The notes below the pieces were generated by a model. It was not told where the DNA came from. It ran no database searches and was given only the letters and a program-made list of their open reading frames with translations. The position numbers and the translations under genes were made by a program. From Chroococcidiopsis sp. TS-821 (GTDB lineage: Bacteria; Cyanobacteriota; Cyanobacteriia; Cyanobacteriales; Chroococcidiopsidaceae), in NCBI RefSeq assembly GCF_002939305.1, contig NZ_MVDI01000003.1, positions 1-64,000 on the forward strand: a stretch of 64,000 nt of DNA, in the 5' to 3' direction. Positions within the stretch are counted from its first letter, which is position 1. Each line of letters opens with the position of its first letter. This document shows, one piece after another, positions 1,323 through 33,459 of this stretch.

Positions 1323-1379
1323 AGTAATTTATATCGAAATTCAAGAGTAATAATTAGCTTGCGAGCAGGGAGCAACAAT

Positions 1380-2372
1380 ATGCAATGTATTGACAATAAA
1401 ACTTATGTTTTACAAGTTGTAGAACTGCTCAAGTTAGAAGCAGAAGCAATTACTAAAGCTGCCAATCGTCTTCAATCGGAACAAGTTGAAAAGGCGGTTG
1501 AAATATTAGCAAATTGTCGAGGGAAAGTGGTACTAGCTGGCGTTGGGAAGTCAGGAATTGTGGCGCGTAAAATTGCTGCAACTTTAACAAGTACGGGAAC
1601 GCTAGCTGTCTATTTGCATCCAGCAGATGCGCTACATGGCGATTTAGGAATCGTTACATCAGATGATGTTGCCATGGTTCTAAGTAACAGTGGTGAAACT
1701 GATGAACTTGTCGTTATGTTACCGCACCTCAAGGCTCGGCAAGTGCCAATTATTGCATTAGTAGGCAACTTGCGCTCTACCTTAGCTCGTAATGCTGATG
1801 TTGTCATGGATGCTGCGGTAGACAAAGAAGCGTGTCCGTTCAATCTTGCGCCGACGACGAGTACAACTGTTGCTTTGTCGATTGGCGACGCGCTAGCGAT
1901 GACATTAATGCAAGTCAAAGGGTTAACGCCCGAAGGTTTTGCGCTGAATCATCCTGCGGGACGCTTGGGAAAACGCTTGACCTTGCGCGTGCGAGACTTA
2001 ATGCACAGTGGGGTAGAAAATCCCACTGTGTTACCTCAAGCGTCTTGGATTGAAGTATTAACCACAATTAGCAAAGGTGGTTTAGGCGCGGTTAACGTCG
2101 TTGATAATGCGAGTCGCTTACTCGGAATTATTACAGATGGAGATTTGCGGCGCTTACTACAAAAATCTCAAAATAAGGACTTGGAATCATTAAGCGCGAT
2201 CGCGATGATGACTCCAAATCCAGTGGTGGTTTCTCCTGACTTACTCGCCTTTCATGCTTTGGAATTGATGGAAAATCGACCATCACAAATTTCAATGTTA
2301 CCTGTTGTTGATGCACAACAGCATTGTATCGGTTTGATTCGATTGCACGATATTGTGCGGTGCGGAATTTGA
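1380..2372 (+). CDS. kdsD: Arabinose-5-phosphate isomerase (KpsF/GutQ family)
   Basis: Converts D-ribulose 5-phosphate to D-arabinose 5-phosphate, the first committed step to KDO. The SIS domain (about residues 30-165) shows VLAGVGKSGIVARKIAATL and LSNSGETDELV, and DALHGDLG lies between. A tandem CBS pair follows (about 200-325: RVRDLMHSG and IAMMTPNPVVVSP). About 330 residues is the usual length. I chose ATG 1380, preceded by a GCAGGGAG ribosome site, over a TTG seven codons upstream. kdsB, kdsA and kdsC lie downstream in the same cluster, which makes KDO synthesis the likely role. Confidence 0.93.
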   Translation: MQCIDNKTYVLQVVELLKLEAEAITKAANRLQSEQVEKAVEILANCRGKVVLAGVGKSGIVARKIAATLTSTGTLAVYLHPADALHGDLGIVTSDDVAMVLSNSGETDELVVMLPHLKARQVPIIALVGNLRSTLARNADVVMDAAVDKEACPFNLAPTTSTTVALSIGDALAMTLMQVKGLTPEGFALNHPAGRLGKRLTLRVRDLMHSGVENPTVLPQASWIEVLTTISKGGLGAVNVVDNASRLLGIITDGDLRRLLQKSQNKDLESLSAIAMMTPNPVVVSPDLLAFHALELMENRPSQISMLPVVDAQQHCIGLIRLHDIVRCGI

Positions 2373-3496: not shown

Positions 3497-4237
3497 ATGG
3501 AAATCTTGGCTGTCATTCCTGCACGTTACGACTCACAACGCTTTCCTGGTAAACCTCTAGTGATGATTGAAGATCGTCCTATGGTGCAGTGGGTTTATGA
3601 AGCGGCGAAAAGTTGTCCTGCTTTTAGTAAGGTTGTCGTTGCGACAGACAGCGAACTGGTAGCAGATTGCGTGCGCAAGTTTGGCGGTGCAGTAGAAATG
3701 ACGAGTAGCGCGCATCAAACAGGTACAGACCGCGTTGCTGAAGTTGCTCAAAGATATCCACAAATGCAGGCGATCGCTAATGTTCAAGGAGATCAACCTT
3801 TTGTGACGGCGCAAATGCTGATGCAATTGGTTTCTCCTTATTTAGAGGGCGCAGCACCAGATATGACAACGTTAGCTTGTCCGTTAGAACAAGAAACAGA
3901 TTACTTTAACCCAAATGCAGTAAAGGTGTTGTGCGATCGCAACGGTCGCGCGCTTTACTTCTCGCGATCTCCGATTCCCTACTTCCGCAATCAAGGAACT
4001 GCCCCAGTTTTTCACCACCTTGGGCTGTATGCTTTTAGACGAGATTTTCTGGCGGACTACGCTCAACTTACGCCTACACCACTAGAACAGTGCGAAGGTT
4101 TAGAACAATTACGCGTTCTAGAACACGGTTATTCAATTATTGTCCGCCAAACGCAAAAAGCTGTGCTGGAGATTAATACTCCCGCCGATTTACTACAAGC
4201 AAAGTCGCTATTTGCTAAAAGCTCAGTTACATCATGA
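3497..4237 (+). CDS. kdsB: 3-deoxy-manno-octulosonate cytidylyltransferase (CMP-KDO synthetase)
   Basis: Activates KDO with CTP to give CMP-KDO, the donor for KDO transferases. The N-terminal nucleotide-binding motif IPARYDSQRFPGKPL (residues 7-21) is diagnostic. NVQGDQPFV (about 94-102) carries the metal-binding acidic residue, and YFSRSPIPYFR and HHLGLYAFRRDFL follow as in the family. At 246 residues it is full length. The ATG at 3497 follows GGAGTCATT. It is separated by 72 bases from the preceding gene, a gap filled by a dispersed repeat. Confidence 0.95.
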   Translation: MEILAVIPARYDSQRFPGKPLVMIEDRPMVQWVYEAAKSCPAFSKVVVATDSELVADCVRKFGGAVEMTSSAHQTGTDRVAEVAQRYPQMQAIANVQGDQPFVTAQMLMQLVSPYLEGAAPDMTTLACPLEQETDYFNPNAVKVLCDRNGRALYFSRSPIPYFRNQGTAPVFHHLGLYAFRRDFLADYAQLTPTPLEQCEGLEQLRVLEHGYSIIVRQTQKAVLEINTPADLLQAKSLFAKSSVTS

Positions 4238-5968: not shown

Positions 5969-6121
5969 TTTAAAAAATGTTATGCAAATAAATTCGCAGC
6001 CAAGCAAAAATCCACCTGCACAGAAGACCGAGTGTGTTGCCGCGCACACTATGTTTCAATAGCCCCGAAGAAAGTCGTATGGCATCTATCCATAACTCAC
6101 CGTCATAAGTGTGGTTCAACA

Positions 6122-8756: not shown

Positions 8757-9595
<839 letters not shown>

Positions 9596-9596
<1 letters not shown>

Positions 9597-10105
9597 TGAC
9601 TATGACAGTGACTACATCAGAATTGCGATCGCGTTTATCTCAGGTGAAGCTTTTAGCACTTGATGTCGATGGCGTACTCACCGATGGAGGACTTTACTAC
9701 ACCGAGACGGGTGAAGTCTTCCGAAAATTCAATATCAAAGATGGTCAAGGAATCAAACTTTTAAAGCAAGCTGGTGTAGAAGTTGCGATTATTACTGCTA
9801 AATCTGCCTTATCAACACTTAATCGCGCGCAAGATTTAGGCATTACACACACTTTTTTGGGCGTCAAAGACAAGCTTTCGCAGTTAAAAATTCTTTGTCA
9901 AAAATTAGATATTTCACTTTCGCAAGTTGCTTACGTTGGCGATGATATTAACGATCTTGAGGTACTGCAAGCTGTCGGTTGTCCAATGACAGTTGCAGAT
10001 GCCATGCAGGCAAATCAAAATATTGCGATCTATATCACTAAATTACCAGGAGGACAAGGGGCGGTTAGAGAAATCTGCGAGATGCTAATTGCTAATTGTC
10101 AATAG
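9596..10105 (+). CDS. kdsC: 3-deoxy-manno-octulosonate-8-phosphatase (HAD family)
   Basis: Removes phosphate from KDO 8-phosphate to release KDO. The 169-residue cap-less HAD protein has motif I LLALDVDGVLTDG (nucleophile Asp, DxD), motif II IITAKSA and the acidic motif AYVGDDINDLEVL. IKDGQGIKLL near residue 50 is typical of the KdsC/YrbI subfamily. It starts at ATG 9596 inside the kdsA stop; a second ATG two codons on is also possible. Confidence 0.95.
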
Positions 10106-10124
10106 TGTTGTAATTCAATTAGAT

Positions 10125-11354
10125 ATGTCACAAACAAAAACAATCAAGCGTTTGGTAGCTTGCTTTGGCAGCATTCAACTCGCTACAGCTTTGTCAGTTC
10201 TAAGTTATAGAGCTAAAGAACAACAAGAACTAAACTATGTCTATGAAGATTACCTTGTGATTACTCCTTTGTTTGCTCCCCAAGGGCAAAATGAGGAGTT
10301 TGCTGCCTTTATTGAAAAGATGGCTAAATCTATCCACTCGTGGAAAAAGATTGTTTATCTCTCATTAGAAAAAACAAAATCCTTGACAGATAAAATTAAT
10401 GCTTCTAATGTGTCTGAAGTCGCTAAATTGGTTCGTGATTTTGTAGGAGTTGAGTGTCCTGAGGAAATTTATCTTGCTCGCACGTGGAATACAGAAAATC
10501 AGCTTTTAATGAACGTTTATGAGGCTGCTGAAAAAATTTGCTACGGAGATGGTATCGGGATTTACTTCTCCCATGCAGCTTTTTTACCACAAAATACATC
10601 GCCAGAAGCTACTCTTTCCCTGAGTAATTTATACAAAAATTTCAAAAAGCAGATTAAAGGAGTATTGCCTAAAAAGAAAAAATTCCGCAAACAAGAGTTT
10701 GATATTGGTTATTTTTCGTTACCCTATGCTTTTGGTGAAGTTCCGCCTATGGAAACAGTTGTCTTAGATAGGTCAGTTTACATAAAAACCTTTCAAACTC
10801 TTAGAAAAGCACTAGATAATTTAATCGATGCTGATTACATTAATAAATTAAAAGCAGCGATCCAAAATTATTCTGTTTCAGTTCTACTAACTTCTAACTT
10901 TTCTGAAGCTCATCGAATGCCTGTAGAAAAGGAAATTAAGGCGTATAGAGAGTTTTTGTTAACACAAGGCATACCATCTAACTCAATTCTTTTGATTAAA
11001 CCGCACCCACGAGACTCAAAAGAAAAAATTCTGCAATTACAATCCGAGCTAAACGATCTGTATGCAAAAATCATTTTGCTGAATGAAGAATTTTTATTTT
11101 ATCTTCCGTTTGAAGTTCTCTTTATGGAGTTGTTCCTTAAGTTTGATTTAACTCAGTCACAGACTCCTAAAATATTTACTTTTAGTTCAGCCTGCTTAAC
11201 GCTAGAGTTTCTATTTGTTGCTGAGTGTATTGTAGGTTTTGGTAAAGAAATTGTAGAAAAATACTTCTATCCAGAACATCGTGAAGGTAGAATCAAACAC
11301 GAAGTAGATTTGCAATCAACAATTAGCGAAGTCAGAGACTTAGTTGCTGCCTGA
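10125..11354 (+). CDS. Polysialyltransferase-like glycosyltransferase
   Basis: A 409-residue protein from ATG 10125; an ATG at 10089 would overlap kdsC. It resembles the alpha-2,8-polysialyltransferase family (PF07388). The N-terminus is KRLVACFGSIQLATALSVL, the mid-protein has CYGDGIGIYFS where sialyltransferases carry an acidic D/E-D/E-G motif, then ILLIKPHPRDS (HP motif) and FTFSSACLTLEF (S-S motif). Sialyltransferases use CMP-sugars, and this gene begins just 19 bases after kdsC. A CMP-KDO donor is therefore an attractive inference. Lysine- and Asn-rich low-GC stretches distinguish it from kdsA/kdsC. Confidence 0.65.
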   Translation: MSQTKTIKRLVACFGSIQLATALSVLSYRAKEQQELNYVYEDYLVITPLFAPQGQNEEFAAFIEKMAKSIHSWKKIVYLSLEKTKSLTDKINASNVSEVAKLVRDFVGVECPEEIYLARTWNTENQLLMNVYEAAEKICYGDGIGIYFSHAAFLPQNTSPEATLSLSNLYKNFKKQIKGVLPKKKKFRKQEFDIGYFSLPYAFGEVPPMETVVLDRSVYIKTFQTLRKALDNLIDADYINKLKAAIQNYSVSVLLTSNFSEAHRMPVEKEIKAYREFLLTQGIPSNSILLIKPHPRDSKEKILQLQSELNDLYAKIILLNEEFLFYLPFEVLFMELFLKFDLTQSQTPKIFTFSSACLTLEFLFVAECIVGFGKEIVEKYFYPEHREGRIKHEVDLQSTISEVRDLVAA

Positions 11355-11544: not shown

Positions 11545-13203
11545 ATGATCGTAGATGCATTAGCGGTACCCGAAAACACACTTATCGAAAAAGACGTTTG
11601 TATAGTTGGTGCAGGAGCCGCAGGAATTACTATTGCACGAGAATTACGCAATCAACCTTATGAAGTCTGCATTTTAGAAAGTGGTGGATTCGACTTCGAC
11701 CAAGCAACGCAATCGCTATACGACGGTACGAACGTTGGTCTTTCCTATTTTCCTCTAAGCGAGGCACGGGCGCGCTATCTGGGCGGTTCGACGAACTTGT
11801 GGGGGGGGTGGAGTCGCCCATTTGATGAAATTGACTTTGAAAAACGCTCGTGGGTGCCTTATAGTGGCTGGCCGATAACACGCTCTGAGTTAATGCCATA
11901 CTACCACCGCGCGCAGCAAGCTTGTCATCTGGGAGCTTTTGCTTACGATTTCTCATCCTGGGAAGCAACTTTAAAGCAACTACAATGCGATCGCCTACCT
12001 TTGAACGAGTCCCAAGTCGAAACTTGCATTTGGCAAGTGATCCCACCGACGCACCTGCGCTTTGGCGAAGCATACCGAGCCGAACTCGAACAAGCAAAAA
12101 ATATTTCTACCTATCTTCACGCCAATGTTGTCGAAATCGAAACTAACGATACTGCCAAAGCTGTCACTCGCCTACAAGTTGCCAGCATAGATGGTAAGAA
12201 GTTTTGGGTAAAAGCAAAAGTCTTTATTCTGGCTGTTGGCGGTATTGAAAATCCCCGTTTACTGTTGCTGGCAAACAAAGTGCAAAGCTGCGGACTAGGC
12301 AATCAGTACGACCTTGTGGGTAGATTCTTTATGGAACACCCTTTGCTGAAATCTGGTAAGGTACAGTTTTCGCAACCAGCTGCGCTGTACACTCAAAAAA
12401 TTATTCAAGCTGGCGAGTTATACATGGGCGCAGGGTTCAACCTTCCCCAAGCCGTGCAAGAACGCGAACAACTACTGAATTTCAGTACAAGACTTTTACC
12501 TGTGCGCAATGAGGGGTTAGAAGCTTTTCAACGACTAAGACATCGCATTCCGCAAGCGAAGACACCTGAGGCTTTCCCCAAGATAGTGCAGGGACATCGC
12601 TACCGCAATAACACTTCGATTGTGAGTGATTTGGGTAAAGTCGTAACGCATTTTGATAGCGTTGTTGCAAAAATCTATACCAAATTGCTGAAATCCAATG
12701 CGGTGCAGGAACCGCAAGCTTACAACACGCTGATGATTGGCGAGCAAGCGCCTAACCCAGATAGCCGAGTCATGTTGAGTCGCGATCGCGATCGCTTAGG
12801 ACTGAATCGCGTCACACTCGACTGGCGCTTAACTTCACTCGATAAGTACACAATACAGCGATCGCAGCAACTTGTCGCGCAAGAACTAGCGCGTTCTGGA
12901 GTCGGTCAACTGCAACTTGAGCTTACTGATAATGATGCCTCGTGGCAATCGCTAACGAGTTCCTACCACCACATGGGAACAACGCGGATGAGCACAAATC
13001 CCCGCGAAGGCGTTGTTGACGAAAACTGTCGCATTCATGGAATGAGCAATTTATACGTAGCTGGTAGTTCCGTTTTCCCGACTGGAGGACATTCAAACCC
13101 AACATTGACAATTGTTGCTTTATCAATTCGATTAGCAGATCGTATCAAAGCACAGATGAGTTCTTCTCAGACGATTAATGCCATGGTTGGTAGCAGCACA
13201 TAA
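11545..13203 (+). CDS. GMC-family FAD-dependent oxidoreductase
   Basis: A 552-residue flavoprotein. The FAD-binding Rossmann motif is at residues 18-36 (VCIVGAGAAGITIARELRN), and GGSTNLWGGW (about 84-93) is the substrate-side GMC signature. The C-terminal GMC_oxred_C block reads SYHHMGTTRMS, with the catalytic His, then NLYVAGSSVFPTGGHSNPT with the second His. Such enzymes oxidise alcohol groups of sugars or other small molecules. Flanked by glycosyltransferase genes, it probably tailors a sugar or glycan; the substrate is unknown. Confidence 0.85.
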   Translation: MIVDALAVPENTLIEKDVCIVGAGAAGITIARELRNQPYEVCILESGGFDFDQATQSLYDGTNVGLSYFPLSEARARYLGGSTNLWGGWSRPFDEIDFEKRSWVPYSGWPITRSELMPYYHRAQQACHLGAFAYDFSSWEATLKQLQCDRLPLNESQVETCIWQVIPPTHLRFGEAYRAELEQAKNISTYLHANVVEIETNDTAKAVTRLQVASIDGKKFWVKAKVFILAVGGIENPRLLLLANKVQSCGLGNQYDLVGRFFMEHPLLKSGKVQFSQPAALYTQKIIQAGELYMGAGFNLPQAVQEREQLLNFSTRLLPVRNEGLEAFQRLRHRIPQAKTPEAFPKIVQGHRYRNNTSIVSDLGKVVTHFDSVVAKIYTKLLKSNAVQEPQAYNTLMIGEQAPNPDSRVMLSRDRDRLGLNRVTLDWRLTSLDKYTIQRSQQLVAQELARSGVGQLQLELTDNDASWQSLTSSYHHMGTTRMSTNPREGVVDENCRIHGMSNLYVAGSSVFPTGGHSNPTLTIVALSIRLADRIKAQMSSSQTINAMVGSST

Positions 13204-17044: not shown

Positions 17045-18895
17045 ATGCCTGTTAAAATTCCTGCACCAATTCACCGTATTCTCAGAACTACAAGCTTTTG
17101 GCGAGATAACTCTTTTCTGTTTAGAGAGTTTAAGTATTTTGGTCGAGCGGCAATCTTTGCGTTTACATTTACTATCCTAGCGGCAGCTTTTGAAGGATTT
17201 GGCATTGGTTTTATCCTCACTTTTCTGCAAAGTCTGACACATCCCGATAGCGCCCAGCTACAGACAGGAATAGAGTGGGTTGATACAGTTATTCTGGGCG
17301 TGAATGCTCCTGTCAACGAAAGACTCTTTCGGATTTCTGGTCTTATTCTCTTAACCACGTTCTTACGCTTAGGCTTCAGTTACTTAGGTAAACTTTATAC
17401 CAGAATTTCTGCTTCTAATTTGGCGTATCGCTTACGACGACTTCTCTTTGAACAGTTAATTTCGCTGCGGATCAGTTACTTCGCTAAAAAACGTTCCGGA
17501 GAAATCATCAATAGCCTCACCGCAGAAGTTATTCATTTACAACACGCTTTTGATGTCAGTTCTACGCTGCTGACTAAAACGGTAACGCTTTGGGTGTACG
17601 TAATCTCAATGTTTTTATTATCCTGGCAGCTAACTTTAGTGTCAGGTATGCTATTTAGCTTGCTATCTGTGGGCATATCGACGCTATTAGGACGCATTCG
17701 AGAAGCCAGTTTTGAAAAATCCAAAGCAAGCGGTAAGTACACCTCCGTAGCACTTGAATTAGTCAACGGTATTCGCACTGTTCATGCCTTTGCAGCCGAA
17801 GATTTTGAACGCAAACGCTTTTATAGTGCTAATCAAAATCTATTAGATGCAACGCTGCGTTCTGTATCCGCACAAGCACTTGTAGAACCTCTTAGAGAAG
17901 GAATTGCAACATCAATTCTGATTGGCATGTTAGTGGTAGCAGTGACCACTTTAATTCCACAAGGTTATCTAGAATTAGCTTCTTTATTGACTTTCTTATT
18001 TGTGCTGTTCCGCATGATGCCAACTTTACGCCAAATCGACTCGGCTAGAGTGCAAATGAGTGGTCTGCATGGTTCGCTCCGAGACATCAAAGAATTACTG
18101 CGCAAAGATGACAAAGCTTATACGCGCAATGGCAAAGTTCAGTTTACCCACTTGAATCGAGCAATTGAGTACGTTGCAGTCGATTTTGGTTACGATCCTC
18201 AAGAACCTGTTTTGCACAACATTTCACTTTCAATTAAAAAAGGTGAAATGACAGCCTTGGTAGGCTCTTCGGGTGCCGGTAAATCAACGTTAGCTGACTT
18301 AATTCCAAGATTTTATGACCCTACTGCTGGTCAGATTCTCGTTGATGGCGTTGATTTACGCGAATTTGAAATTAACTCACTGCGGCGTAAGTTAGCCGTT
18401 GTCAGTCAAGACACGTTTATCTTCAATACTTCGGTACGTAACAATATAGCCTATGCACTTGAAGACGCTGACGAAGAGGCGATTTGGGAGGCGGCACGTT
18501 TAGCAAATGCATTAGACTTTATTCAAGAATTACCTCAAGGTTTTGATACGCAGTTAGGCGATCGCGGCGTGCGGTTATCTGGCGGACAAAGACAACGAAT
18601 CGCGATCGCGCGGGCATTGTTACGCAATCCAGAAATTCTTATTCTTGATGAAGCAACCAGCGCGTTAGATTCTGTCTCTGAGCGCTTAATTCAAGAATCT
18701 TTAGAAAAACTTGCCGTTGGTCGTACCGTAATTGCGATCGCACACCGCCTTTCCACAATCGTGCGTGCGGATAAAGTTGTTGTTCTTGAAGGCGGACGGA
18801 TTGTAGAACAAGGAGGCTATCAAGAGTTACTGAGTCAGCGTGGTAAACTATGGAAGTATCATCAGCTACAACATGAAATGAGTCGCGCGTCGTAA
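17045..18895 (+). CDS. ABC exporter, HepA/MsbA type (fused membrane and ATPase domains)
   Basis: A 616-residue half-transporter. Six transmembrane helices span about residues 30-330. The ATPase domain has Walker A GSSGAGKST (about 413-421), signature LSGGQRQR, Walker B ILILDEATSALD and the H-loop AIAHRLSTI. The N-terminal sequence EFKYFGRAAIFAFTFTILAA recalls HepA, the heterocyst-envelope polysaccharide exporter of Anabaena. Given its neighbours, it most likely exports the polysaccharide, a lipid-linked intermediate or lipid A. It begins 38 bases after the acyltransferase gene. Confidence 0.85.
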   Translation: MPVKIPAPIHRILRTTSFWRDNSFLFREFKYFGRAAIFAFTFTILAAAFEGFGIGFILTFLQSLTHPDSAQLQTGIEWVDTVILGVNAPVNERLFRISGLILLTTFLRLGFSYLGKLYTRISASNLAYRLRRLLFEQLISLRISYFAKKRSGEIINSLTAEVIHLQHAFDVSSTLLTKTVTLWVYVISMFLLSWQLTLVSGMLFSLLSVGISTLLGRIREASFEKSKASGKYTSVALELVNGIRTVHAFAAEDFERKRFYSANQNLLDATLRSVSAQALVEPLREGIATSILIGMLVVAVTTLIPQGYLELASLLTFLFVLFRMMPTLRQIDSARVQMSGLHGSLRDIKELLRKDDKAYTRNGKVQFTHLNRAIEYVAVDFGYDPQEPVLHNISLSIKKGEMTALVGSSGAGKSTLADLIPRFYDPTAGQILVDGVDLREFEINSLRRKLAVVSQDTFIFNTSVRNNIAYALEDADEEAIWEAARLANALDFIQELPQGFDTQLGDRGVRLSGGQRQRIAIARALLRNPEILILDEATSALDSVSERLIQESLEKLAVGRTVIAIAHRLSTIVRADKVVVLEGGRIVEQGGYQELLSQRGKLWKYHQLQHEMSRAS

Positions 18896-20422: not shown

Positions 20423-21301
20423 ATGTTGCTGATCTTCTTAAACTTTTGGCACATCAAACGACAGCTACGAATTCCACCAAGCATCATTTATCAGCAGGAT
20501 ATTGAATTTACTCAGAATCAAGCGCGCGCGCTCAAAATGGATATTTTGTATCCAAAATCCGCAACGTCAATGCCTGTATTAGTTTGGATTCATGGTGGTG
20601 CTTGGCGGACAGGTGATAAAAAAGACGGATTCAAGCATTTAGTTCCCTTTGCCCGCCAGGGCTTTTTTTGTGCCAGTATTGAATATCGTTTGAGCCATGA
20701 AGCCATCTTTCCGGCTCAAATTGAAGATTGTAAAAGTGCCATTCGCTTTCTTCGCGCTCACGCGCAAGAGTTTCAAATCGATTCGCAACGCATTGGTGTT
20801 TGGGGAGTTTCTGCTGGCGGACATCTCGCTGCGCTATTAGGAACAACACATCACATTCCAGAGTTTGAAGGTAACGGAGGTTGGCAAGGTTATTCTAGCC
20901 GCGTACAAGCCGTTTGTGATTGGTTTGGTCCAACTGATTTTTTGAGAATCAATGACTTTCCTCGTAACATTGACTTTACTCCTGCAAACTCGCCAGAAGC
21001 AGCGCTAATTGGCGGAATTGTTGCAGAAAATCAAGATAAAGCCGCAAAAGCAAACCCAATTACTTTCGTCAGTAAAGAGGCTCCTCCTTTTTTAATTGTG
21101 CATGGAGATAAGGATTTATTAGTACCGCTCAACCAAAGTCAATTACTCTTTGATGCTTTGAAAAAAGCCGAGGTTGAAGTAACACTTGAAGTTATTAAAA
21201 ATGGCAGACACGGAAATAAAAAGCATTTCGGCTCGCGCCTTCTCTATAAAAAAATGGAGAGATTTTTTAAAAAGCACCTGACTGCTCGTATCCCTAGTTA
21301 A
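20423..21301 (+). CDS. Alpha/beta-hydrolase, BD-FAE-like carbohydrate/lipid esterase
   Basis: A 292-residue serine hydrolase. The oxyanion-hole motif is VWIHGGAWRTGD, the nucleophile lies in GVWGVSAGGHLAA (G-x-S-A-G), the acid in FLIVHGDKDLLVP, and the catalytic His in NGRHGNKKH. This order is typical of BD-FAE and kynurenine-formamidase-type esterases. The first 20 residues are hydrophobic and basic and may anchor the protein. Members remove acyl or feruloyl groups; with acyltransferases and a phenylpropanoid-like cassette in the same cluster, deacylation of the glycan is possible but unproven. Confidence 0.8.
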   Translation: MLLIFLNFWHIKRQLRIPPSIIYQQDIEFTQNQARALKMDILYPKSATSMPVLVWIHGGAWRTGDKKDGFKHLVPFARQGFFCASIEYRLSHEAIFPAQIEDCKSAIRFLRAHAQEFQIDSQRIGVWGVSAGGHLAALLGTTHHIPEFEGNGGWQGYSSRVQAVCDWFGPTDFLRINDFPRNIDFTPANSPEAALIGGIVAENQDKAAKANPITFVSKEAPPFLIVHGDKDLLVPLNQSQLLFDALKKAEVEVTLEVIKNGRHGNKKHFGSRLLYKKMERFFKKHLTARIPS

Positions 21302-22680: not shown

Positions 22681-22752
22681 ATTAATTCATGCTTTTCAAC
22701 CAACACTTGTAGCAGATCGCAGTTGCAAACGGCAGTCAAACAGGAGCCATCT

Positions 22753-23811
22753 ATGACAGAACCCCAAGTTACGATTGTTGTCTCTCCGCGCGAACGATTC
22801 AGCTATACGCGTGAATCCTTAGAAAGTATTTACGAGCATACCAAAACTCCTTTTCATTTAATCTATGTTGATGGTGGCTCGCCCCCAAAAATCAAAAACT
22901 ATCTAGCAGCACAAGCGCGTGAGAAGAATTTTCAACTTGTTCGCACCGAACACTACCTTTCACCCAACCATGCTAGAAATTTAGGGCTAGCTCAGGTTAA
23001 CACCAAGTATGTTGTTTTTATCGACAATGACGTGGTTGTCACTCCAGGCTGGCTAGATAAATTAATTGAATGTGCAGAGTCCACAAACGCAACAATAGTT
23101 AGTCCCCTGATTTGTCAACACTTACCCTTGCATGAAATAGTCCATTGCGCTGGCGGAGAATCTGGCGTACGTGTTGAGGCTAAAGACGGAAACATTCGGC
23201 GGCGGATGATTGAGAAAATCTATATGCAAGGGCGCAAAGTCGCTGATGTCCGCCCGAAACTACGACGCAGCGAAACAGGTCTTGCTGAATTTCATTGCAT
23301 GATGGTACGTACCGACATTTTCGCTCAAGTTGGCATGCTTGACGAGCAGTTGCTTAATACCAAAGAACACGTAGATTTTTGTATTTTAGTTAACGAAGCT
23401 GGCGGTAGTATTTATTTAGAACCCGATTCAATTGTCACCTATGTACCAAGCTCCTCACTTTCGTGGGCAGATACGACTTTCTACATGCTGCGTTGGAGTG
23501 ACGCATGGGAATTGGCAAGCTTACATCGCTTGCGTGACAAATGGAATTTAACTGAGGATGATTACTTCAAAAATAAGTATAAAAAGTTAGGTTGGCGACG
23601 CTATATGTCTATTATCCAACCGCTGAGCGCCGATCTCAGTTTTGGACAGCGCGGGCGCGTGCGTCGGATGGTGACAGATACTTTAATATCCATAGATAAG
23701 CGACTTAATAGATACATTACTACTCGCTACGCTCAAAAACATTTGCCGCCAAAGCAACAGCCTGTATTACAGGTGCAGCAAAGACAAATGGCAGTAGCAT
23801 CGCGTAATTGA
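22753..23811 (+). CDS. Family 2 glycosyltransferase
   Basis: A 352-residue GT-A enzyme from ATG 22753 behind ACAGGAGCC; a TTG at 22723 adds ten residues. Motifs are PQVTIVVSPRERFSYTRESL, LIYVDGGSPPKIKNYL, NHARNLGLAQVNTKYVVFID and NDVVVTPGWLDKL, where IDND binds the metal-nucleotide. HCMMVRTDIFAQVGMLDEQ marks the acceptor-side region. It is the last glycosyltransferase before the ammonia-lyase cassette, so its product could be the acceptor for the acyl group made there (inference). Confidence 0.85.
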   Translation: MTEPQVTIVVSPRERFSYTRESLESIYEHTKTPFHLIYVDGGSPPKIKNYLAAQAREKNFQLVRTEHYLSPNHARNLGLAQVNTKYVVFIDNDVVVTPGWLDKLIECAESTNATIVSPLICQHLPLHEIVHCAGGESGVRVEAKDGNIRRRMIEKIYMQGRKVADVRPKLRRSETGLAEFHCMMVRTDIFAQVGMLDEQLLNTKEHVDFCILVNEAGGSIYLEPDSIVTYVPSSSLSWADTTFYMLRWSDAWELASLHRLRDKWNLTEDDYFKNKYKKLGWRRYMSIIQPLSADLSFGQRGRVRRMVTDTLISIDKRLNRYITTRYAQKHLPPKQQPVLQVQQRQMAVASRN

Positions 23812-24069
23812 GGTTAGCGGGACGTTGACACGCGACTACTTGCTCATCAAAAAAGCTCAATATAAGTGCCATGCCTATAAAATTTGCGGGCTGTCCGTTT
23901 AGAGAACAGTACGGTCTGCTTTTTGCTGACAATTTTTAGTACTTAAATCCGGTTGATGAGTTTTGATGCACGCTATCGCGATTACTAGATACGGCTTATC
24001 AACAGTCATTTATGCCTGCTTTTGCCAGCGTGTAAACTTCGTTGTTTTAAAAACCTTTCAAGGAACTAC
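23812..24069 (+). other. Spacer before the aromatic ammonia-lyase cassette
   Basis: About 258 bases without a recognised gene. It probably holds the promoter of the cassette, since the gap is much larger than those inside the cassette. No -35/-10 pair stands out. The ribosome site AAGGAACTAC lies immediately before ATG 24070. Confidence 0.3.
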
Positions 24070-25749
24070 ATGAATACAGCAGTACAAACACAAGCGTCTA
24101 CAAGTTTAAACGCAGATACGATTTTATTAGGCGATCGCAAACTCACAATCGACGAAGTCGTGAGTGTGGCGCGTCATGGTGCCAAGGTACAAATTAGTAC
24201 AGCTGACAATGTTGCGCAGCGCGTGCAAGCATCGTGTGACTATATTGCTGAAGCTGTTGCTACAGGTAGACCAATCTACGGCGTTACAAGTGGTTTTGGT
24301 GGCATGGCAAACGTGGTCATTTCGCGCGAGTACGCAGACCTTTTACAACACAACCTCGTGTGGTATCACAAAGTTGGTGCTGGACGCAAGTTACCCCTCA
24401 CTGATGTCCGCGCCGCGATGCTGTTGCGTGTTAATTCACACTTGCATGGTGCTTCAGGAATTCGCCGCGAGATTATCCAGCGGATGGAAACATTTTTGAA
24501 TGCTAACGTGACACCGCACGTTCCGGAATACGGTTCGATTGGTGCTAGTGGCGATTTGACACCGCTATCGTACATTACAGGTGCTTTGATTGGTTTGGAC
24601 GATCGCTACACCGTTGACTTTGATGGCGAAGAAATCGATGCCATTACCGCGCTCAATCGTTTGGGATTACCGCAGTTGCAACTCCAAGCCAAAGAAGGAT
24701 TAGCCATGATGAATGGCACCTCAGTAATGACAGGAATTGCCGCAAACTGCGTCTACGACACGCGGCTACTGATGGCGCTGACCATGGGAGCGCACGCGCT
24801 GATTCTTCAAGGGTTAAACGGCACAAATCAATCATTCCATCCGTTTATTCACGAACTGAAACCGCATCCAGGGCAAAAATGGGCGGCATACACAATGCTC
24901 GATTTGCTCGCTGGTTCGCGCTTAATTCGTGAAGAATTAGACGGTACGCACGAATATCGCGGTCAAGCCCCCATACAAGATCGTTACTCGCTACGCTGCT
25001 TGGCGCAATACATGGGACCCATAGTTGATGGTGTATCGCAAGTTGCGCAACAAGTCGAAGTTGAAATGAACTCGGCGACAGATAACCCCCTCATTGATGC
25101 CGAAAACCAAGCAAGCTATCACGGCGGTAATTTCTTAGGACAGTACATCGGCATGGGTATGGATCATCTGCGGTACTACATCGGCATGATGGCGAAACAC
25201 CTTGACGTCCAGATAGCCTATCTTGTCGCACCTGAGTTTAGCAACGGATTACCAGCATCTTTGGTTGGTAATAAAGAACGCATTGTCAATATGGGGCTAA
25301 AAGGATTGCAGATTACAGGCAACTCAATTATGCCGTTGTTGAGTTTCTATGGAAATTCGATTGCCGATCGCTATCCTACCCACGCCGAGCAATATAACCA
25401 AAATATCAATAGCCAAGGATTTGCCGCCGCGAATTTAACGCGCAACGCGGTCGAGATCTTTCAGCAGTATATGGCGATCGCGCTTATGTTTGGCGTCCAA
25501 GCCGTTGATTTAAGAACATATGCCCATGCAGGACATTACGACGCAAGCGAGTGTTTATCACCGACAACACGCCGTCTGTATCAAGCTGTGCGTGAAGTTG
25601 TCGGACAACCTTCGTCTACAACTCGCCCCTATATTTGGGACGATCGCGAACAACCCCTAGACGAACACATTGCCAAAATTGCCGCTGATATCGCGACTGA
25701 AGGTGTCATCGTCGCAGCGGTAAAAGACCTCTTGACTAGCTTGAAGTAA
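24070..25749 (+). CDS. MIO-type aromatic amino acid ammonia-lyase (PAL/HAL family)
   Basis: A 559-residue lyase that should release ammonia from an aromatic amino acid to give a cinnamate-type acid. The MIO-forming Ala-Ser-Gly is at residues 159-161 (GSIGASGDLTPLSYITG), and the catalytic Tyr70 is in PIYGVTSGFGG. The protein follows Anabaena/Nostoc PAL along its length as I remember them (GLAMMNGTSVMTGIAANCV, NGTNQSFHPFIH, NINSQGFAAANL). The selectivity pair is Tyr99-His100 (NLVWYHKVGAG), where cyanobacterial PALs have Phe-Leu, so the substrate may differ. I chose ATG 24070; an ATG at 24022 adds 16 residues with no ribosome site. Confidence 0.9.
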   Translation: MNTAVQTQASTSLNADTILLGDRKLTIDEVVSVARHGAKVQISTADNVAQRVQASCDYIAEAVATGRPIYGVTSGFGGMANVVISREYADLLQHNLVWYHKVGAGRKLPLTDVRAAMLLRVNSHLHGASGIRREIIQRMETFLNANVTPHVPEYGSIGASGDLTPLSYITGALIGLDDRYTVDFDGEEIDAITALNRLGLPQLQLQAKEGLAMMNGTSVMTGIAANCVYDTRLLMALTMGAHALILQGLNGTNQSFHPFIHELKPHPGQKWAAYTMLDLLAGSRLIREELDGTHEYRGQAPIQDRYSLRCLAQYMGPIVDGVSQVAQQVEVEMNSATDNPLIDAENQASYHGGNFLGQYIGMGMDHLRYYIGMMAKHLDVQIAYLVAPEFSNGLPASLVGNKERIVNMGLKGLQITGNSIMPLLSFYGNSIADRYPTHAEQYNQNINSQGFAAANLTRNAVEIFQQYMAIALMFGVQAVDLRTYAHAGHYDASECLSPTTRRLYQAVREVVGQPSSTTRPYIWDDREQPLDEHIAKIAADIATEGVIVAAVKDLLTSLK

Positions 25750-25761
25750 GGACTTGTAGTG

Positions 25762-27402
25762 ATGAATATTGCTCAACACGTAGAACGCGGTCATCATTTA
25801 TTTCCCGATAAGATTGCCCTTATCTTTGAAGGCAGATCTTATACATACAAAGACCTCGATCTGCTGGCGAACCGCATCGCCAATGGATTGCGCGATCGCA
25901 ACATTCATCGCGGCGATCGCGTTGCTTTATTTTTGCCGAATATTCCCGAATTCATCATCGCCTACTTAGGTATAGTCAAGATCGGTGCGGTTGCGGTCTC
26001 GCTGAACGCCATGCTCAAAAGCACCGAAGTTAGCTTTATTCTCAACGATTCTGGTGCGAAAGCCGTTGTTACTACCGCCGAACTTGTGGAGAACGTCCCC
26101 GCCGCCGATTTGCCTGAGTTAAAACACATCTTGATTGCCGAAGGCGAAAGTGACAAGGGCATTAGTTTAGCTGAAATGATGGCAAGTGCTTCACCCGAAG
26201 CAAAAGCAATTGAAATGGACCGCCACGCACCTGCGGCGATCGTTTACACTTCAGGTACAACAGGCTTTCCTAAAGGTGCAACGCTATCTCACGGTAACGT
26301 TATTTCTAACAGCTACTCGCAAAACCGTTGTTGCGGGATGAGTGCTGAAGATCGTATCTTACTGTACCTACCACTATTCCACTGCTTCGGGCAAAACGCT
26401 GTCCTCAACGCTGGGCTAAACGCTTGTGCGACAATCGTTCTTCATCGTCATTTCGACTTAGAGAAAATTCTCAACTCGGTCGCTACTGAAAAAATCACAA
26501 TGTTCTTTAGCGTACCGACCGTCTACATCCTACTCCTCAACATGGGGACGTTAAAGTATGACATGAGTTCGATTCGCTACTATTTCTCAGCGGCTGCACC
26601 ACTTCCTGTAGAAGTTGCCCAACGCTGGTTCGACAAGTATGGACTGGAAATTCATCAAGGCTATGGATTAACCGAAACATCGCCGTGTGCTAGCTACAAC
26701 CATGACTTTAAATATAAAGTCGGGTCGATTGGCACGCCGATTGAAAACGTCGAAATGAAAATCGTCCATGCAGATGGCAGAGACGCCTTACCAGGAGAAC
26801 CTGGCGAAATTGCGATTCGCGGTCCTAATGTCATGTTGGGATACTGGAATCGCCCGTTTGAAACCGCTGAAGTTATCAAAAATGGTTGGTTCTACACCGG
26901 CGATATCGGTCAAATTGATGAAGATGGCTATTTCTACATTGTGGATCGTTCCAAAGACATGATTAATGTTGCAGGATTCAAAGTCTATCCCACTGAAGTA
27001 GAAAATGTCATTTATCAACATCCAGCAGTTGCCGAAGTTGCCGTTTATGGCGTTCCCAACTTGGAAACAACGGAAATCGTTAAAGCCAATATTGTGCTTA
27101 AACCTGAGCAAACTGTTACAGAAAAACAAATGATTGCTTTTTGTTCAGAACGCATGGCAGCCTATAAAGTACCCAAAGCAATTAAGTTTGTTGATGCGAT
27201 TCCTAAAAATCCTACAGGAAAAGTCTTAAAACGCGTTTTGCGCGACGAGGCGGCTAAGGAAGTTTTAGTTAAACCCAGAAGCTTTACTACCAAGTCTGTT
27301 GTTGCAACTAAAACAGTATCAGTAGCAACACCAGCTACTACTACTCATTCCCATAAAGGTGTATTCAAAGCTTTAGGTAATTTGTTCAAAAACCGCAATT
27401 AG
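25762..27402 (+). CDS. AMP-forming acyl-CoA/aryl-CoA ligase
   Basis: A 546-residue ANL-superfamily adenylating enzyme. Core motifs are VYTSGTTGFPKGATLSHGN (residues 161-179), QGYGLTETSPCASYN, GEIAIRGPNVMLGYWN, WFYTGDIGQIDEDGY, DRSKDMINVAGFKVYP and the catalytic-lysine end PKNPTGKVLKRVL. The sequence alone does not separate fatty-acyl from 4-coumarate/cinnamate ligases. Lying 12 bases after the ammonia-lyase, it probably activates that enzyme's product. A tail of about 45 residues rich in Thr, Val and Lys (HSHKGVFKALGNLFKNRN) follows the usual end. A GTG one codon before the ATG could also be used. Confidence 0.85.
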   Translation: MNIAQHVERGHHLFPDKIALIFEGRSYTYKDLDLLANRIANGLRDRNIHRGDRVALFLPNIPEFIIAYLGIVKIGAVAVSLNAMLKSTEVSFILNDSGAKAVVTTAELVENVPAADLPELKHILIAEGESDKGISLAEMMASASPEAKAIEMDRHAPAAIVYTSGTTGFPKGATLSHGNVISNSYSQNRCCGMSAEDRILLYLPLFHCFGQNAVLNAGLNACATIVLHRHFDLEKILNSVATEKITMFFSVPTVYILLLNMGTLKYDMSSIRYYFSAAAPLPVEVAQRWFDKYGLEIHQGYGLTETSPCASYNHDFKYKVGSIGTPIENVEMKIVHADGRDALPGEPGEIAIRGPNVMLGYWNRPFETAEVIKNGWFYTGDIGQIDEDGYFYIVDRSKDMINVAGFKVYPTEVENVIYQHPAVAEVAVYGVPNLETTEIVKANIVLKPEQTVTEKQMIAFCSERMAAYKVPKAIKFVDAIPKNPTGKVLKRVLRDEAAKEVLVKPRSFTTKSVVATKTVSVATPATTTHSHKGVFKALGNLFKNRN

Positions 27403-27543
27403 CTCAAATAGAACCAACGTAGCGGAGCAAAAAAGAAACGATTAGCTATTAGCGATGAGCTAAATATGACAGATGAACTTAGGGTGTGAACGAGCTGTTG
27501 GCTCTTAGCAATCAATTGTCTTTACGCAAATTGAAGAGAAATC

Positions 27544-28740
27544 ATGAAATCTTTAGAAGAAACAATGAAGATCTCCCAAACGGAACTAGACTCAAAGCTA
27601 GAGCCAAATAGCTTAGAAGGAGAAGTTTATATTGCGCCACGCAACTCTATCGAACTCCAACTTGCGCAAATGTGGGAGCAAGTATTGGAAATTCAACCGA
27701 TTAGCATTATTGACAACTATTTCGATCTTGGAGGAGACTCCCTACGGGCGCTGCGCCTATTCGATCAAATCGAGCAAACCTTTGGTAAAAAGCTGTCTTT
27801 AGCAACGTTAATTCAAGCACCAACCCTCGAACAACTCGCTGAAGTTATTGCTCAGGAATCTGAATCAGTACCTTTTACCTCGTTAGTACCAATTCAACCT
27901 AGTGGCTCTAAACCACCATTATTTTGCATGCATGGTAATGGTGCGCATGTTCTTGCTTTTCAAGATCTAGCTCAGTATTTAGGTACAGATCAACCCTTCT
28001 ATGGATTGCAAGCCCGCGGAGTCGATGGAGTGACAACTCCTTTAGAACGAATTGAAGATATGGCAGCTGCTTATATTGAAGAAATTCGCGCAGTTCAACC
28101 AGAAGGTCCTTATTATTTAGCAGGTTTCTCGTCTGGGGGTGTAGTGGCGTTTGAAATGGCAAGGCAATTACACGCGCAAGGTGAGAAGGTTGCGTTTGTC
28201 GGCTTACTCGATACTTTTGTCCCTGGTTGTTTCAAAAAAGTGACTGTACTAGAGTGGTTCGCGCGACAGTGGCGTAACTTCTGGCGTTTCGGGTTGAAAC
28301 ATCCAGTAAAAATGGCTTATCGCAGTCTTGAACGAAAATGGTACTTTGTCTACTGGAATGTTTATCTAAAACTCGCAGGCTCTTTACCTTATTTTTGGCA
28401 CAGAAAGTACGTAGGCTACAGTATTAGAAAAGCAATGCGAACTTATGAATTTCAACCTTACGCCGGTAAGTTAACGCTGTTTCGTGCTACTGAAGTGCCA
28501 GGAAAAGGATGGTATTACTATCCCTCAGGAATGCCTACTCCTGATGATTGGCATACAAAAGATCCTGAATACGGTTGGGGTAGCCTTGCTGAAGGAGGAT
28601 TAGAAACCCACGACCTTCCTGGTAATCACTCGACAATTCTTAAAGAACCGCATATCAGAGTTTTGAGTCAAACATTGGCAGCTTGCTTGGAGAAAGCACG
28701 CGCAGAGGTTAATCGTAGCGAGTTGAATCAACTCGCATAA
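27544..28740 (+). CDS. Carrier protein-thioesterase didomain (PCP-TE)
   Basis: A 398-residue fusion of two NRPS-type domains with no adenylation or condensation part. The carrier domain (about residues 32-105) has the phosphopantetheine site Ser66 in DNYFDLGGDSLRAL. The type I thioesterase (about 120-385) starts PPLFCMHGNGAHVLAF, with nucleophile Ser196 in YLAGFSSGGVVAFEM, an acidic residue in VGLLDTF, and His in LPGNHSTILKEPH. It could receive an acyl group activated by the upstream ligase and transfer or release it. The gap of 141 bases from the ligase holds short repeats near 27440-27465. Confidence 0.88.
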   Translation: MKSLEETMKISQTELDSKLEPNSLEGEVYIAPRNSIELQLAQMWEQVLEIQPISIIDNYFDLGGDSLRALRLFDQIEQTFGKKLSLATLIQAPTLEQLAEVIAQESESVPFTSLVPIQPSGSKPPLFCMHGNGAHVLAFQDLAQYLGTDQPFYGLQARGVDGVTTPLERIEDMAAAYIEEIRAVQPEGPYYLAGFSSGGVVAFEMARQLHAQGEKVAFVGLLDTFVPGCFKKVTVLEWFARQWRNFWRFGLKHPVKMAYRSLERKWYFVYWNVYLKLAGSLPYFWHRKYVGYSIRKAMRTYEFQPYAGKLTLFRATEVPGKGWYYYPSGMPTPDDWHTKDPEYGWGSLAEGGLETHDLPGNHSTILKEPHIRVLSQTLAACLEKARAEVNRSELNQLA

Positions 28741-30681: not shown

Positions 30682-31683
30682 ATGCAATCAAATATCATAC
30701 ATAAAACTTCAATAAAAGACAAAAAAGAGCACCCGATTGTTAGCGTTGGATTACCTGTTTATAACGGAGAAGATTTACTAGAAAAAGCCTTAAAATCAAT
30801 TTTATCACAAACTTATTCTAATTTTGAACTGATTATTTCTGATAATGCATCAACTGATAAAACTAGAGCAATCTGCGAAGCTTATGCAGCCAAGGATTCT
30901 CGAATTAAATACTTTCGTAATGAAAAGAATATTGGAGGACATAATAACTTCAACCGCGTTTTTGAACTAGCAACAGGTAAGTACTTCAAGTGGGCGGCAC
31001 ATGACGATCTATGTGCACCTGATTTTATAGAAAAATGTGTCGATGCACTTGAAACAAATCCATCAGTTGTTTTATGTTATCCTAGAGCTAAACTAATCAA
31101 CGAACGCGAAGAAGTTTTACCGAATAATTGTGATGAGAATCCGTTCCTGACAAACTCATCAAAACCTCATATCCGCTTCCGCAATCTGATAATTGACTCG
31201 TTTGCTAAACCGCATCGCTGTTTACAGCTATTTGGAGTCATGCGTCGAGATATGTTGGCAAAAACACCTTTATTAAGAAACTATCCTGGCGCAGATAAAG
31301 TTTTACTCGTCAAAATAGCGCTGCTTGGACAATATTACGAAGTTCCTGAATACTTATTTTTTAACCGCCACCATGCCCAACGTGCGAGTAAAGCGCTATC
31401 AAATCCCTATTTACGTGCCACGTGGCTTGACCCAAGTTTGAAAGCTGGCAAACTCGTCTTTCCTCAAGGAAGAGTTTTTTTAGGATACATCAATTCTATC
31501 AACACTACTTCTTTAAGTTTATACCAAAAAATTTGTTGCTATTTGTATTTGTTTCACTGGTTATTGAAATACAAAAACGCACTTTTCAAAGAATTAATTA
31601 AAGCAGCAATATGGCCTATTTACTTCTCGATACAACGTAGAAGACTTGTCAAATCAAATCCCGAAAACGTTCCTTCTAGCTAA
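30682..31683 (+). CDS. Family 2 glycosyltransferase
   Basis: A 333-residue GT-A protein: IVSVGLPVYNGEDLLEKAL, FELIISDNASTDKTRAIC and FKWAAHDDLCAPDFI (DD metal site), then SFAKPHRCLQLFGVMRR. It resembles rhamnosyl- or hexosyl-transferases of O-antigen clusters. The basic, aromatic C-terminus (from about residue 270) may contact the membrane. Its stop is 11 bases before the RmlC-like epimerase start, so the two are probably co-transcribed. Confidence 0.85.
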   Translation: MQSNIIHKTSIKDKKEHPIVSVGLPVYNGEDLLEKALKSILSQTYSNFELIISDNASTDKTRAICEAYAAKDSRIKYFRNEKNIGGHNNFNRVFELATGKYFKWAAHDDLCAPDFIEKCVDALETNPSVVLCYPRAKLINEREEVLPNNCDENPFLTNSSKPHIRFRNLIIDSFAKPHRCLQLFGVMRRDMLAKTPLLRNYPGADKVLLVKIALLGQYYEVPEYLFFNRHHAQRASKALSNPYLRATWLDPSLKAGKLVFPQGRVFLGYINSINTTSLSLYQKICCYLYLFHWLLKYKNALFKELIKAAIWPIYFSIQRRRLVKSNPENVPSS

Positions 31684-32246: not shown

Positions 32247-32745
32247 GTCTAGACCAGGATGCTTGCAAATTAAGTAGGTGGAATTGGATATTATACGCGT
32301 TGAGAGCAGGTAATTGGTAACAGGAAGGCTTTTAGCATTTGGCAATTAGCATTTAGCCACATAGATGCTTGACCGACGTTTTGCTTGGGAAACTAAAGGC
32401 GGCTGCGCTGGTTACCAATAATCGACTACTTAGTTCATTACTTAAATTGCACCAGAACTAAGTAAAGGCTGCATTATCCCTCTAGCAGGATATTTATCGA
32501 TCCTATCTCCTTTCTCCCAAAAGGCTCATTAAATTTGGCTAGATAGACAAAAGCCACTATGGCATTAGTGGCTCGACTTTACCATTCAAGGTCTGAAATA
32601 GAGTTTTTTGTAAGTTACCACATTAACGCAATCGCTGACTAGCTTAAACGTTACTCAGGCTAGCCTGCGTTCGGCAACGGATCGTGCATCAAGAAAATTT
32701 GTAGTGCATTGTAACACATTGACTGTGCATTTTTTGGAGATAGGT
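32247..32745 (+). other. Long spacer between the epimerase and the priming transferase
   Basis: About 500 bases without a credible gene. Early on there are short repeats of the type GGTAATTGGTAACAGG and AGCATTTGGCAATTAGCATTTAGCC (32306-32357), common in cyanobacterial spacers. A perfect 8-pair hairpin at 32552-32573 (AGCCACTA and TAGTGGCT, 6-base loop) may end the upstream transcript, though no long T tract follows. The ribosome site GGAGATAGGT sits before ATG 32746. Confidence 0.4.
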
Positions 32746-33459
32746 ATGTCTTCCCCAAATTTTATTCCTAGTCCAACTTCAGAAGTAAGTGTAAGCTCTT
32801 TGTATCAAGTGCCCATTCTGCAAGTGCGGTCGTGGCACTACATACTGCAATGTTTCAGTAAAAGAATTATTGATTTTCTTGGTGCTGGATTAGGAGTACT
32901 GTTTTTAAGTCCACTTTTACTGGCGATCGCCCTACTAATTCGTTTAGATTCTCCTGGACCAATTTTCTTTCGCCAGCATCGTATAGGACGAAATGGTAAA
33001 GCTTTCGTCATTTGGAAGTTTCGTACAATGGAGGTTAATGCAGAGGAAAAACTCAAAGAACTTGAGCAACTAAATGAGTCCGAAGGTGGCGTCTTATTCA
33101 AAATGAAAGAAGATCCACGCGTAACTCGTATCGGTAAATTCTTGCGCCGGACAAGTTTAGATGAGCTACCACAACTATTTAATGTATTGCAAGGCAGCAT
33201 GAGCTTAGTAGGTCCTCGCCCTTTGCAGTTCAGAGACTACTACCTTGCGATCAAAGACTATCACGAAGACATGATGCAAAGAGCAACCATGTTACCTGGT
33301 GTGACAGGGTTGTGGCAGGTTAGTGGACGCAGTGAGGTCACTTTTAACGATATGCTCAAAATGGATCTGTTCTATCAAGAAAACTGGTCTTTCTGGTTAG
33401 ACTTACGTATCCTCTGGCAAACAGTTTTAGTTGTTTTATTACGTAAGGGTGCTTATTAA
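32746..33459 (+). CDS. Polyprenyl-phosphate sugar-phosphotransferase (WcaJ/ExoY type)
   Basis: A 237-residue priming enzyme that would move a sugar-1-phosphate from a UDP-sugar to undecaprenyl phosphate at the inner membrane. The transmembrane segment IIDFLGAGLGVLFLSPLLLA (about residues 41-60) is followed by LDSPGPIFFRQHRIGRNGK, FVIWKFRTME, RVTRIGKFLRRTSLDELPQL and GSMSLVGPRP. GVTGLWQVSGRS and a basic C-terminus close the family pattern. It is the short form, without the four extra N-terminal helices. The presence of a priming enzyme implies a Wzx/Wzy- or ABC-dependent polymer. Confidence 0.93.
   Translation: MSSPNFIPSPTSEVSVSSLYQVPILQVRSWHYILQCFSKRIIDFLGAGLGVLFLSPLLLAIALLIRLDSPGPIFFRQHRIGRNGKAFVIWKFRTMEVNAEEKLKELEQLNESEGGVLFKMKEDPRVTRIGKFLRRTSLDELPQLFNVLQGSMSLVGPRPLQFRDYYLAIKDYHEDMMQRATMLPGVTGLWQVSGRSEVTFNDMLKMDLFYQENWSFWLDLRILWQTVLVVLLRKGAY

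Follow-up and report, generated by a model that had tools for sequence, protein, structure and literature searches.

Two kinds of described system are among those closest to the locus considered here. In furanolide clusters, according to the relevant passages of PMC13288894 and PMC12395478, CybB gives 4-coumarate and CybC gives 4-coumaroyl-CoA, and the latter source terms CybC a long-chain acyl-CoA synthetase even though it makes coumaroyl-CoA. The core genes described in those passages encode a lyase, a ligase, a thiamine diphosphate (ThDP) enzyme and a KASIII. The other system is Pks13 of the FadD32-Pks13 pair, for which the relevant part of PMC9210659 reports that FadD32 activates the chain for loading and that the thioesterase (TE) releases it onto polyols, with trehalose preferred. 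The window analysed here, a 64,000-nucleotide stretch of Chroococcidiopsis sp. TS-821, holds an ammonia-lyase gene, an AMP-forming ligase gene and a gene for a stand-alone carrier-TE protein, together called the cassette. My preferred reading, to which I give a probability of roughly one half, is that they form a p-coumaroyl-transfer module within a capsule cluster containing 3-deoxy-D-manno-octulosonate (Kdo) genes, the acyl group being passed to the glycan.

The cassette and its three proteins

Contig C3 of a 5.23-Mb genome begins with the window, whose position 1 coincides with the contig end. Among the records compared, from which very near ones may be missing, the nearest named relative is Gloeocapsopsis crepidinum LEGE 06123, of the Chroococcidiopsidaceae. 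The cassette reads as follows:

24070..25749, plus strand: ammonia-lyase with a 4-methylideneimidazole-5-one (MIO) group, predicted tyrosine ammonia-lyase (TAL) (559 aa; PF00221, YH, ASG)
25762..27402, plus strand: AMP-forming aryl ligase, probably 4-coumarate type (546 aa; PF00501 and PF13193)
about 27256-27354, plus strand: C-terminal linker of the ligase, variable among cassette ligases
within 27355-27399, plus strand: conserved end peptide of the ligase, GV[FL]K[AS]LGN[LI]FK
27544..28740, plus strand: stand-alone carrier-TE didomain (PF00550 and PF00975)

All three reading frames are open on the plus strand. The lyase starts with the ATG at 24070, with AGGA upstream, and stops at 25749; the ligase ATG (25762) follows after 12 bases, and the carrier-TE start (27544) lies 141 bases beyond the ligase stop. 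Reading frames and Pfam thus bear out the original prediction of three genes on one strand between glycosyltransferases, with a 12-base gap between lyase and ligase. It was also right that the cassette has no nonribosomal peptide synthetase (NRPS) module: none was seen among the window genes scanned, and the three condensation domains of the genome are all on contig 8. The same genome has three matches to the ACPS/phosphopantetheinyl transferase families.

This trio is no chance assembly. The lyase is present in nine of the 19 genomes of the family, and in all nine the ligase and carrier-TE stand beside it; in one of them (G119) an insert of 1.7 kb separates ligase from carrier-TE. KdsA, the Kdo-8-phosphate synthase, is encoded on the lyase contig at a distance of 4.7-17.3 kb (9/9). 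The co-occurrence next to polysaccharide genes that the original prediction proposed to look for is therefore kept in every lyase-bearing genome of the family. Within the G119 insert (L051:11351-13051) lies an open frame of 444 residues.

The lyase matches PF00221 across the entire model (505 bits, cut-off 27.3), contains the Ala-Ser-Gly of the MIO group (GASGD in the alignment) and has its closest relatives at 92-97% identity. Its selectivity motif is YH, as in every aligned cassette lyase. Over all 46 aligned rows, in which L032 and L050 come from the same genome and L044 and L071 are identical, the pair is YH in 22, FL in 20, FH in two and LM in two. FL is given as the phenylalanine ammonia-lyase motif and YH as the TAL motif in the pertinent part of PMC5651878, and with YH the predicted substrate is tyrosine and the expected product p-coumarate rather than cinnamate. 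The proposal that an aromatic amino acid is deaminated is supported, but phenylalanine and cinnamate are set aside because the motif is not FL. The NCBIfam model for the bacterial TALs BagA/FevW also matches the lyase, but at 285 against a cut-off of 1000.

The ligase has both ANL domains (PF00501, 336 bits; PF13193, 76 bits) and a segment, NPTGKVLKR, that I take to be the C-terminal lysine motif of ANL ligases. Its best solved relatives are 8weu/8wev (named fatty-acyl-CoA synthase and feruloyl-CoA synthetase), FadD13 and 4-coumarate-CoA ligase (4CL), and it is probably an AMP-forming aryl ligase of the 4-coumarate type. The end peptide that closes it is found in all nine cassette ligases, followed in eight by xRN, and in none of the 31 other lyase-linked ligases. 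In three of those 31, Pfam finds a phosphopantetheine domain fused at the position of the end peptide; two of the three (L040 and L042) are nearly identical and lie by a polyketide synthase (PKS), and the third (L057) lies by an NRPS. These fusions in relatives make ligase-to-carrier loading likely, and by analogy the cassette ligase likely loads its carrier; that the end peptide docks the free carrier is my guess. The three loci with fusions (L040:7957-17531, L042:9974-13707 and L057:131-12144), each with an ammonia-lyase and a carrier-fused ligase beside PKS or NRPS genes, apparently make cinnamoyl-type starter units.

The carrier-TE matches PF00550 with 55 bits and PF00975 with 108 bits. 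Its carrier serine is Ser66 (GGDSL, 27739-27741), and its TE triad, assigned by motif, is Ser196 (28129-28131), Asp223 (28210-28212) and His362 (28627-28629). All four residues are intact in 10/10 cassette rows, which represent nine genomes, one of them twice. Of 243 genomes of the order, 176 have some carrier-TE match at E<=1e-30; the nine cassette proteins match at 57% identity or more, and the next best matches (47-51%) lie within longer proteins. The Pks13 model (residues 26-385, 112 bits) and the EntF model (residues 30-228, 111 bits) match with similar scores, and neither match indicates the acceptor. One of the longer relatives, in L105, is a condensation-peptidyl carrier-TE (C-PCP-TE) protein that by Pfam has no adenylation domain and lies by a chorismate lyase and an aryl ligase; those of L103 and L106-L108 resemble it by length and neighbours, the Pfam run on L103 being confined to its chorismate lyase and exporter genes. 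In its make-up the cassette protein resembles an NRPS-type protein of this sort that lacks the N-terminal domain.

These C-PCP-TE proteins belong to a further aryl-ligase system (L105:4747-14209, with L106, L107 and L108 similar, and L103:5647-16711). Its order is DAHP (3-deoxy-D-arabino-heptulosonate 7-phosphate) synthase (none seen in L103), chorismate lyase, aryl ligase and condensation-PCP-TE protein, ending in FAD enzymes in L105 and in an ABC/HlyD exporter in L103. In L109 (8345-11038) an adenylation-PCP-TE protein stands amid relatives of glycosyltransferases and exporters, a possible fused counterpart of the cassette.

Glycan cluster, module membership and relatives

The first 37 kb or so of the window form a glycan cluster with glycosyltransferases, an initiating sugar transferase, RmlC, an ABC exporter, a Kdo set and three hexapeptide-repeat proteins. 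Features around the cassette are:

1359..2372, plus strand: KpsF/KdsD-family arabinose-5-phosphate isomerase (TIGR00393, 299 bits, cut-off 203.7)
3497..4237, plus strand: KdsB, CMP-Kdo synthetase (TIGR00466, 208 bits, cut-off 155.2)
8760..9596, plus strand: KdsA, Kdo-8-phosphate synthase (TIGR01362, 407 bits, cut-off 314)
9596..10105, plus strand: KdsC-type phosphatase (TIGR01670, 166 bits, cut-off 107)
10089..11354, plus strand: polysialyltransferase-like protein (PF07388, 52 bits), which stays beside the Kdo genes in relatives
11545..13203, plus strand: GMC oxidoreductase (PF05199)
17045..18895, plus strand: ABC exporter with fused membrane and ATPase domains (PF00664, PF00005)
20423..21301, plus strand: alpha/beta hydrolase of the BD-FAE family (feruloyl/acetyl-xylan esterase-like) with GVSAG (PF20434, 234 bits)
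21397-22680: GT4 glycosyltransferase, neighbour of the cassette
22723-23811: GT2 glycosyltransferase, neighbour of the cassette
23962..24035, plus strand: about 75 bases left over from a DAHP synthase gene, a remnant of its 3' end (blastn against L048)
30682-31683: GT2 glycosyltransferase, neighbour of the cassette
32704..33459, plus strand: initiating sugar-phosphate transferase (Bac_transf; PF02397, 237 bits)

KdsD, KdsB, KdsA and KdsC each score above an NCBIfam family or equivalog cut-off, KdsD and KdsC at subfamily level, and the polysialyltransferase-like protein is a candidate CMP-Kdo transferase. The gene at 8760 belongs to the Pfam family 'DAHP synthetase I', and I considered it as an aromatic-pathway DAHP synthase; NCBIfam identifies it as the Kdo-8-phosphate synthase. 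No group 2 capsule export or anchor genes (KpsMT/KpsSC) were recognised among the window genes scanned, the window beginning at a contig end. In the complete genome G085, genes for a Wzz/AAA protein and a Wzy_C protein (the latter with 33.0 bits against a cut-off of 31.7) precede the lyase by about 43-45 kb on the upstream side, with Alg14-like, GT61 and polysaccharide-lyase-like genes in between. Four reading frames of the cluster (474-1322, 2400-3425, 6032-7216 and, on the minus strand, 34925-35806) have no Pfam match at the thresholds used.

The BD-FAE gene is present in exactly the nine lyase-bearing genomes among the 19 of the family (E<=1e-30), 0.7-4.2 kb from the lyase. KdsA has a slightly wider distribution (10/19), and the tenth genome, G161, has two copies and no lyase. 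KdsA-D and the polysialyltransferase-like gene are also kept in three homologous Kdo clusters, namely both clusters of G161 and the second cluster of G148. None of the genes for lyase, ligase, carrier-TE and BD-FAE was present in the regions fetched. These cover 60 kb about one G161 copy and 20 kb about each of the remaining clusters, which falls short of the largest distance between KdsA and lyase; genome-wide searches back the absence of lyase and BD-FAE, and no such search was made for the ligase. This joint presence and absence suggests that the four genes come and go together, behaving as a single module. The three-gene cassette as first described was therefore real but incomplete: the module also has the BD-FAE-type esterase and, in four of the nine genomes, a DAHP synthase.

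The best solved match of the BD-FAE protein is a lipase (6nkf) and the next three are carbohydrate esterases. Its aligned stretch has one or two internal stops in four of the nine genomes; an open frame of 289-351 codons with GxSAG is present in all eight relatives, that of L048 leaving 250 codons from its first ATG. The DAHP synthase gene lies directly before the lyase in G085, G067, G017 and G102, and in L048 it sits between the GT2 gene and the lyase. The L032 copy is named as a DAHP synthase by NCBIfam and reaches 321 with the BagF/FevY model, whose cut-off is 700. The source genome, which has the remnant at this place, has one other DAHP synthase match elsewhere (E<=1e-60). Other neighbours were rejected as parts of the module: a relative of the GMC oxidoreductase stands directly after the carrier-TE in genus g4, and one is also present in one of the three Kdo clusters that lack the cassette, while the GAF, GT4 and first GT2 neighbours are unmatched in the fetched g4 loci.

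The ligase tree places the nine cassette rows in one clade (support 100/100), the cassette clade of the lyase tree is weakly supported (69/23), and a tree of five Kdo-cluster proteins, whose nine rows cover six of the nine cassette genomes, separates the cassette clusters from the rest by a branch with support 77/77. The nine genomes may reflect one origin; the history may comprise one gain followed by loss, or else two gains.

Across the order, lyase matches (E<=1e-60) occur in 31 of the 243 genomes, and a phylum-wide draw of 386 genomes, which overlaps that set, gave nine at E<=1e-200, all in the same order. Outside the family the lyase keeps other company. Among 36 aligned non-family loci (L047 and L078, whose lyases are fragmentary, not counted), the lyase is accompanied in the fetched stretches by a ligase in 31, DAHP synthase in 16 (one 9.8 kb off), a KASIII-like protein in 21 and a ThDP enzyme in 16; a carrier-TE is present in 0/36 as fetched, some loci being shortened by contig ends. 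Of three additional loci, two have lyase, ligase, ThDP and KASIII genes, and the third lyase and ligase only. Linked pairs with ThDP and KASIII genes at their side share 58-78% identity with the cassette lyase and ligase, and by layout and motif the cassette pair would be related to CybB/CybC. The unlinking that the original prediction named as refuting was not found inside the family; in other genomes lyase and ligase are paired but lack the carrier-TE, and furanolide-type genes often accompany them. No linked CybE-like ThDP or CybF-like KASIII gene is present in the fetched cassette loci of the nine genomes. On contig 8 of the source genome (134500-150301), a CybF-like KASIII (50%) lies near NRPS condensation domains.

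Proposed route and rival explanations

In the route I propose, the lyase would convert tyrosine to p-coumarate, and the ligase would activate p-coumarate and attach it to the free carrier's phosphopantetheine, perhaps guided by the end peptide. The TE would then take the p-coumaroyl group on its serine and pass it on to a hydroxyl group of one of the cluster's glycan intermediates, much as Pks13 transfers its own chain to a sugar, and the BD-FAE-type esterase might trim or recycle the ester. The steps as far as the coumaroyl-carrier are quite probable, and more so than the glycan acceptor; transfer onto the glycan is what I infer beyond them. The original idea of an aromatic acid that is made by deamination, activated, loaded on a free carrier and released in connection with the glycan cluster gains from the 9/9 linkage and from the ligase-carrier fusions in relatives.

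Several points weigh against this reading. The full cassette has been seen in one family only, and given the single ligase clade the nine genomes are not nine independent events. Solved fatty-acyl ligases are also among the relatives of the ligase. The helical moment of the end peptide is ordinary (rank 68 of 533 windows, with 1381 of 5000 shuffles as high), and the notion of a strongly amphipathic helix was rejected. Structure prediction for the carrier-TE (two sequences) gave a mean predicted local distance difference test score of 40, too poor for use. Finally, the TE may simply hydrolyse its thioester, the BD-FAE esterase could act on acetyl groups, and the three hexapeptide-repeat proteins could acylate sugars straight from coumaroyl-CoA.

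Two alternatives keep the aromatic acid and change its fate. The acceptor to which the carrier-TE delivers p-coumarate might be no polymer but a glycolipid, small glycoside or amine, or the carrier-TE might hydrolyse its substrate; the product would then be a small aromatic molecule that the ABC exporter perhaps carries out. I consider this unlikely, though a serious contender: the exporter is in the cluster and near the lyase in seven of eight relatives (the flank of G186 was not fetched), a crude hydropathy count gives as many as three membrane spans to no other reading frame at 1-37 kb of the window, and the carrier-TE relatives derive from NRPS-type proteins. Against it stand the start of the window at a contig end, the Wzz and Wzy_C genes upstream of the lyase in the complete genome G085, and the polysaccharide-lyase-like genes that accompany the cluster in relatives. 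Alternatively, the ligase makes coumaroyl-CoA for hexapeptide-type acyltransferases and the carrier-TE is a proofreading enzyme or unrelated. Layout relates the ligase to CybC, a CoA ligase, and the hexapeptide-repeat proteins are at hand, but the carrier-TE is present or absent jointly with lyase and ligase, the ligase tail and the ligase-carrier fusions indicate a carrier partner, and hexapeptide relatives are also found in two of the three Kdo clusters without the cassette; this makes it improbable.

Two further explanations appear very improbable. In one, CybE/CybF-like enzymes encoded away from the lyase-ligase pair join it in furanolide synthesis. A CybF-like gene is present somewhere in four of the nine cassette genomes, the source genome with its single copy on contig 8 among them, but five of the nine have none at E<=1e-20, on which ground I set furanolide synthesis in trans aside; nor do the fetched cassette loci have ThDP or KASIII relatives, a genome-wide ThDP search not having been made. 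In the other, fatty acids are the substrates of ligase and carrier-TE, and the nearby lyase plays no part. At 504.7 bits the ligase does exceed the cut-off (476) of an NCBIfam model with the name long-chain-fatty-acid-CoA ligase, and FadD13 is one of its best solved relatives; so, however, are feruloyl-CoA synthetase and 4CL, a ligase lies beside the lyase in most non-family loci (31/36), and the name long-chain acyl-CoA synthetase is no bar to making coumaroyl-CoA, as the passage on CybC indicates (PMC12395478).

Returning to coumaroyl transfer onto the glycan, I tentatively extend it to the family, with odds a little short of even: these cyanobacteria would build a hydroxycinnamoyl-esterified Kdo capsule by means of a minimal ligase, a free carrier and a TE transferase, the module having arisen when a furanolide-type lyase-ligase pair moved into a capsule cluster and joined the tail of an NRPS-type protein. 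If this is true, such a capsule would be a bacterial counterpart of the coumaroylated and feruloylated glycans of plant cell walls, its aromatic acyl groups could screen light or cross-link the sheath, and a stand-alone carrier-TE would be acting as a glycan acyltransferase. The cassette would also offer a testable route to coumaroylated bacterial polysaccharides.

Comparison with known systems

A full-text search of the open-licence literature revealed such a cluster in no title or abstract opening among the matches listed. Phenolics are reported, in the part of PMC5153682 that bears on this, from methanol extracts of Leptolyngbya capsule fractions; no covalent linkage is shown there, and I do not use the report as support. 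The bagremycin and ferroverdin systems can also be compared: BagA/FevW and BagF/FevY represent TAL and DAHP synthase families that NCBIfam matches here far below their cut-offs.

Like the cassette, the CybB/CybC clusters have an adjacent lyase and ligase, often with a DAHP synthase, and a lyase with YH or FL. Unlike them, the cassette has a carrier-TE, BD-FAE and Kdo/glycan genes, and in the fetched loci no ThDP or KASIII gene. The C-PCP-TE proteins of L103 and L105-L108 share with the cassette protein 47-51% identity and the lack of a fused adenylation domain (Pfam in L105 only), but they keep a condensation domain (Pfam in L105), whereas the cassette protein is PCP-TE alone. In FadD32-Pks13, as is proposed here, the carrier is served by an AMP ligase that is a protein of its own, and the carrier-TE part of Pks13 can release its acyl chain onto a sugar. 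The cassette differs in that its predicted acid is short and aromatic rather than a mycolate, and its own transfer to sugar is only a proposal; nor is it a Pks13-type megasynthase, since its protein is carrier and TE only, with neither ketosynthase nor acyltransferase domain. By analogy, Pks13 would be the nearest precedent for TE transfer to a sugar.

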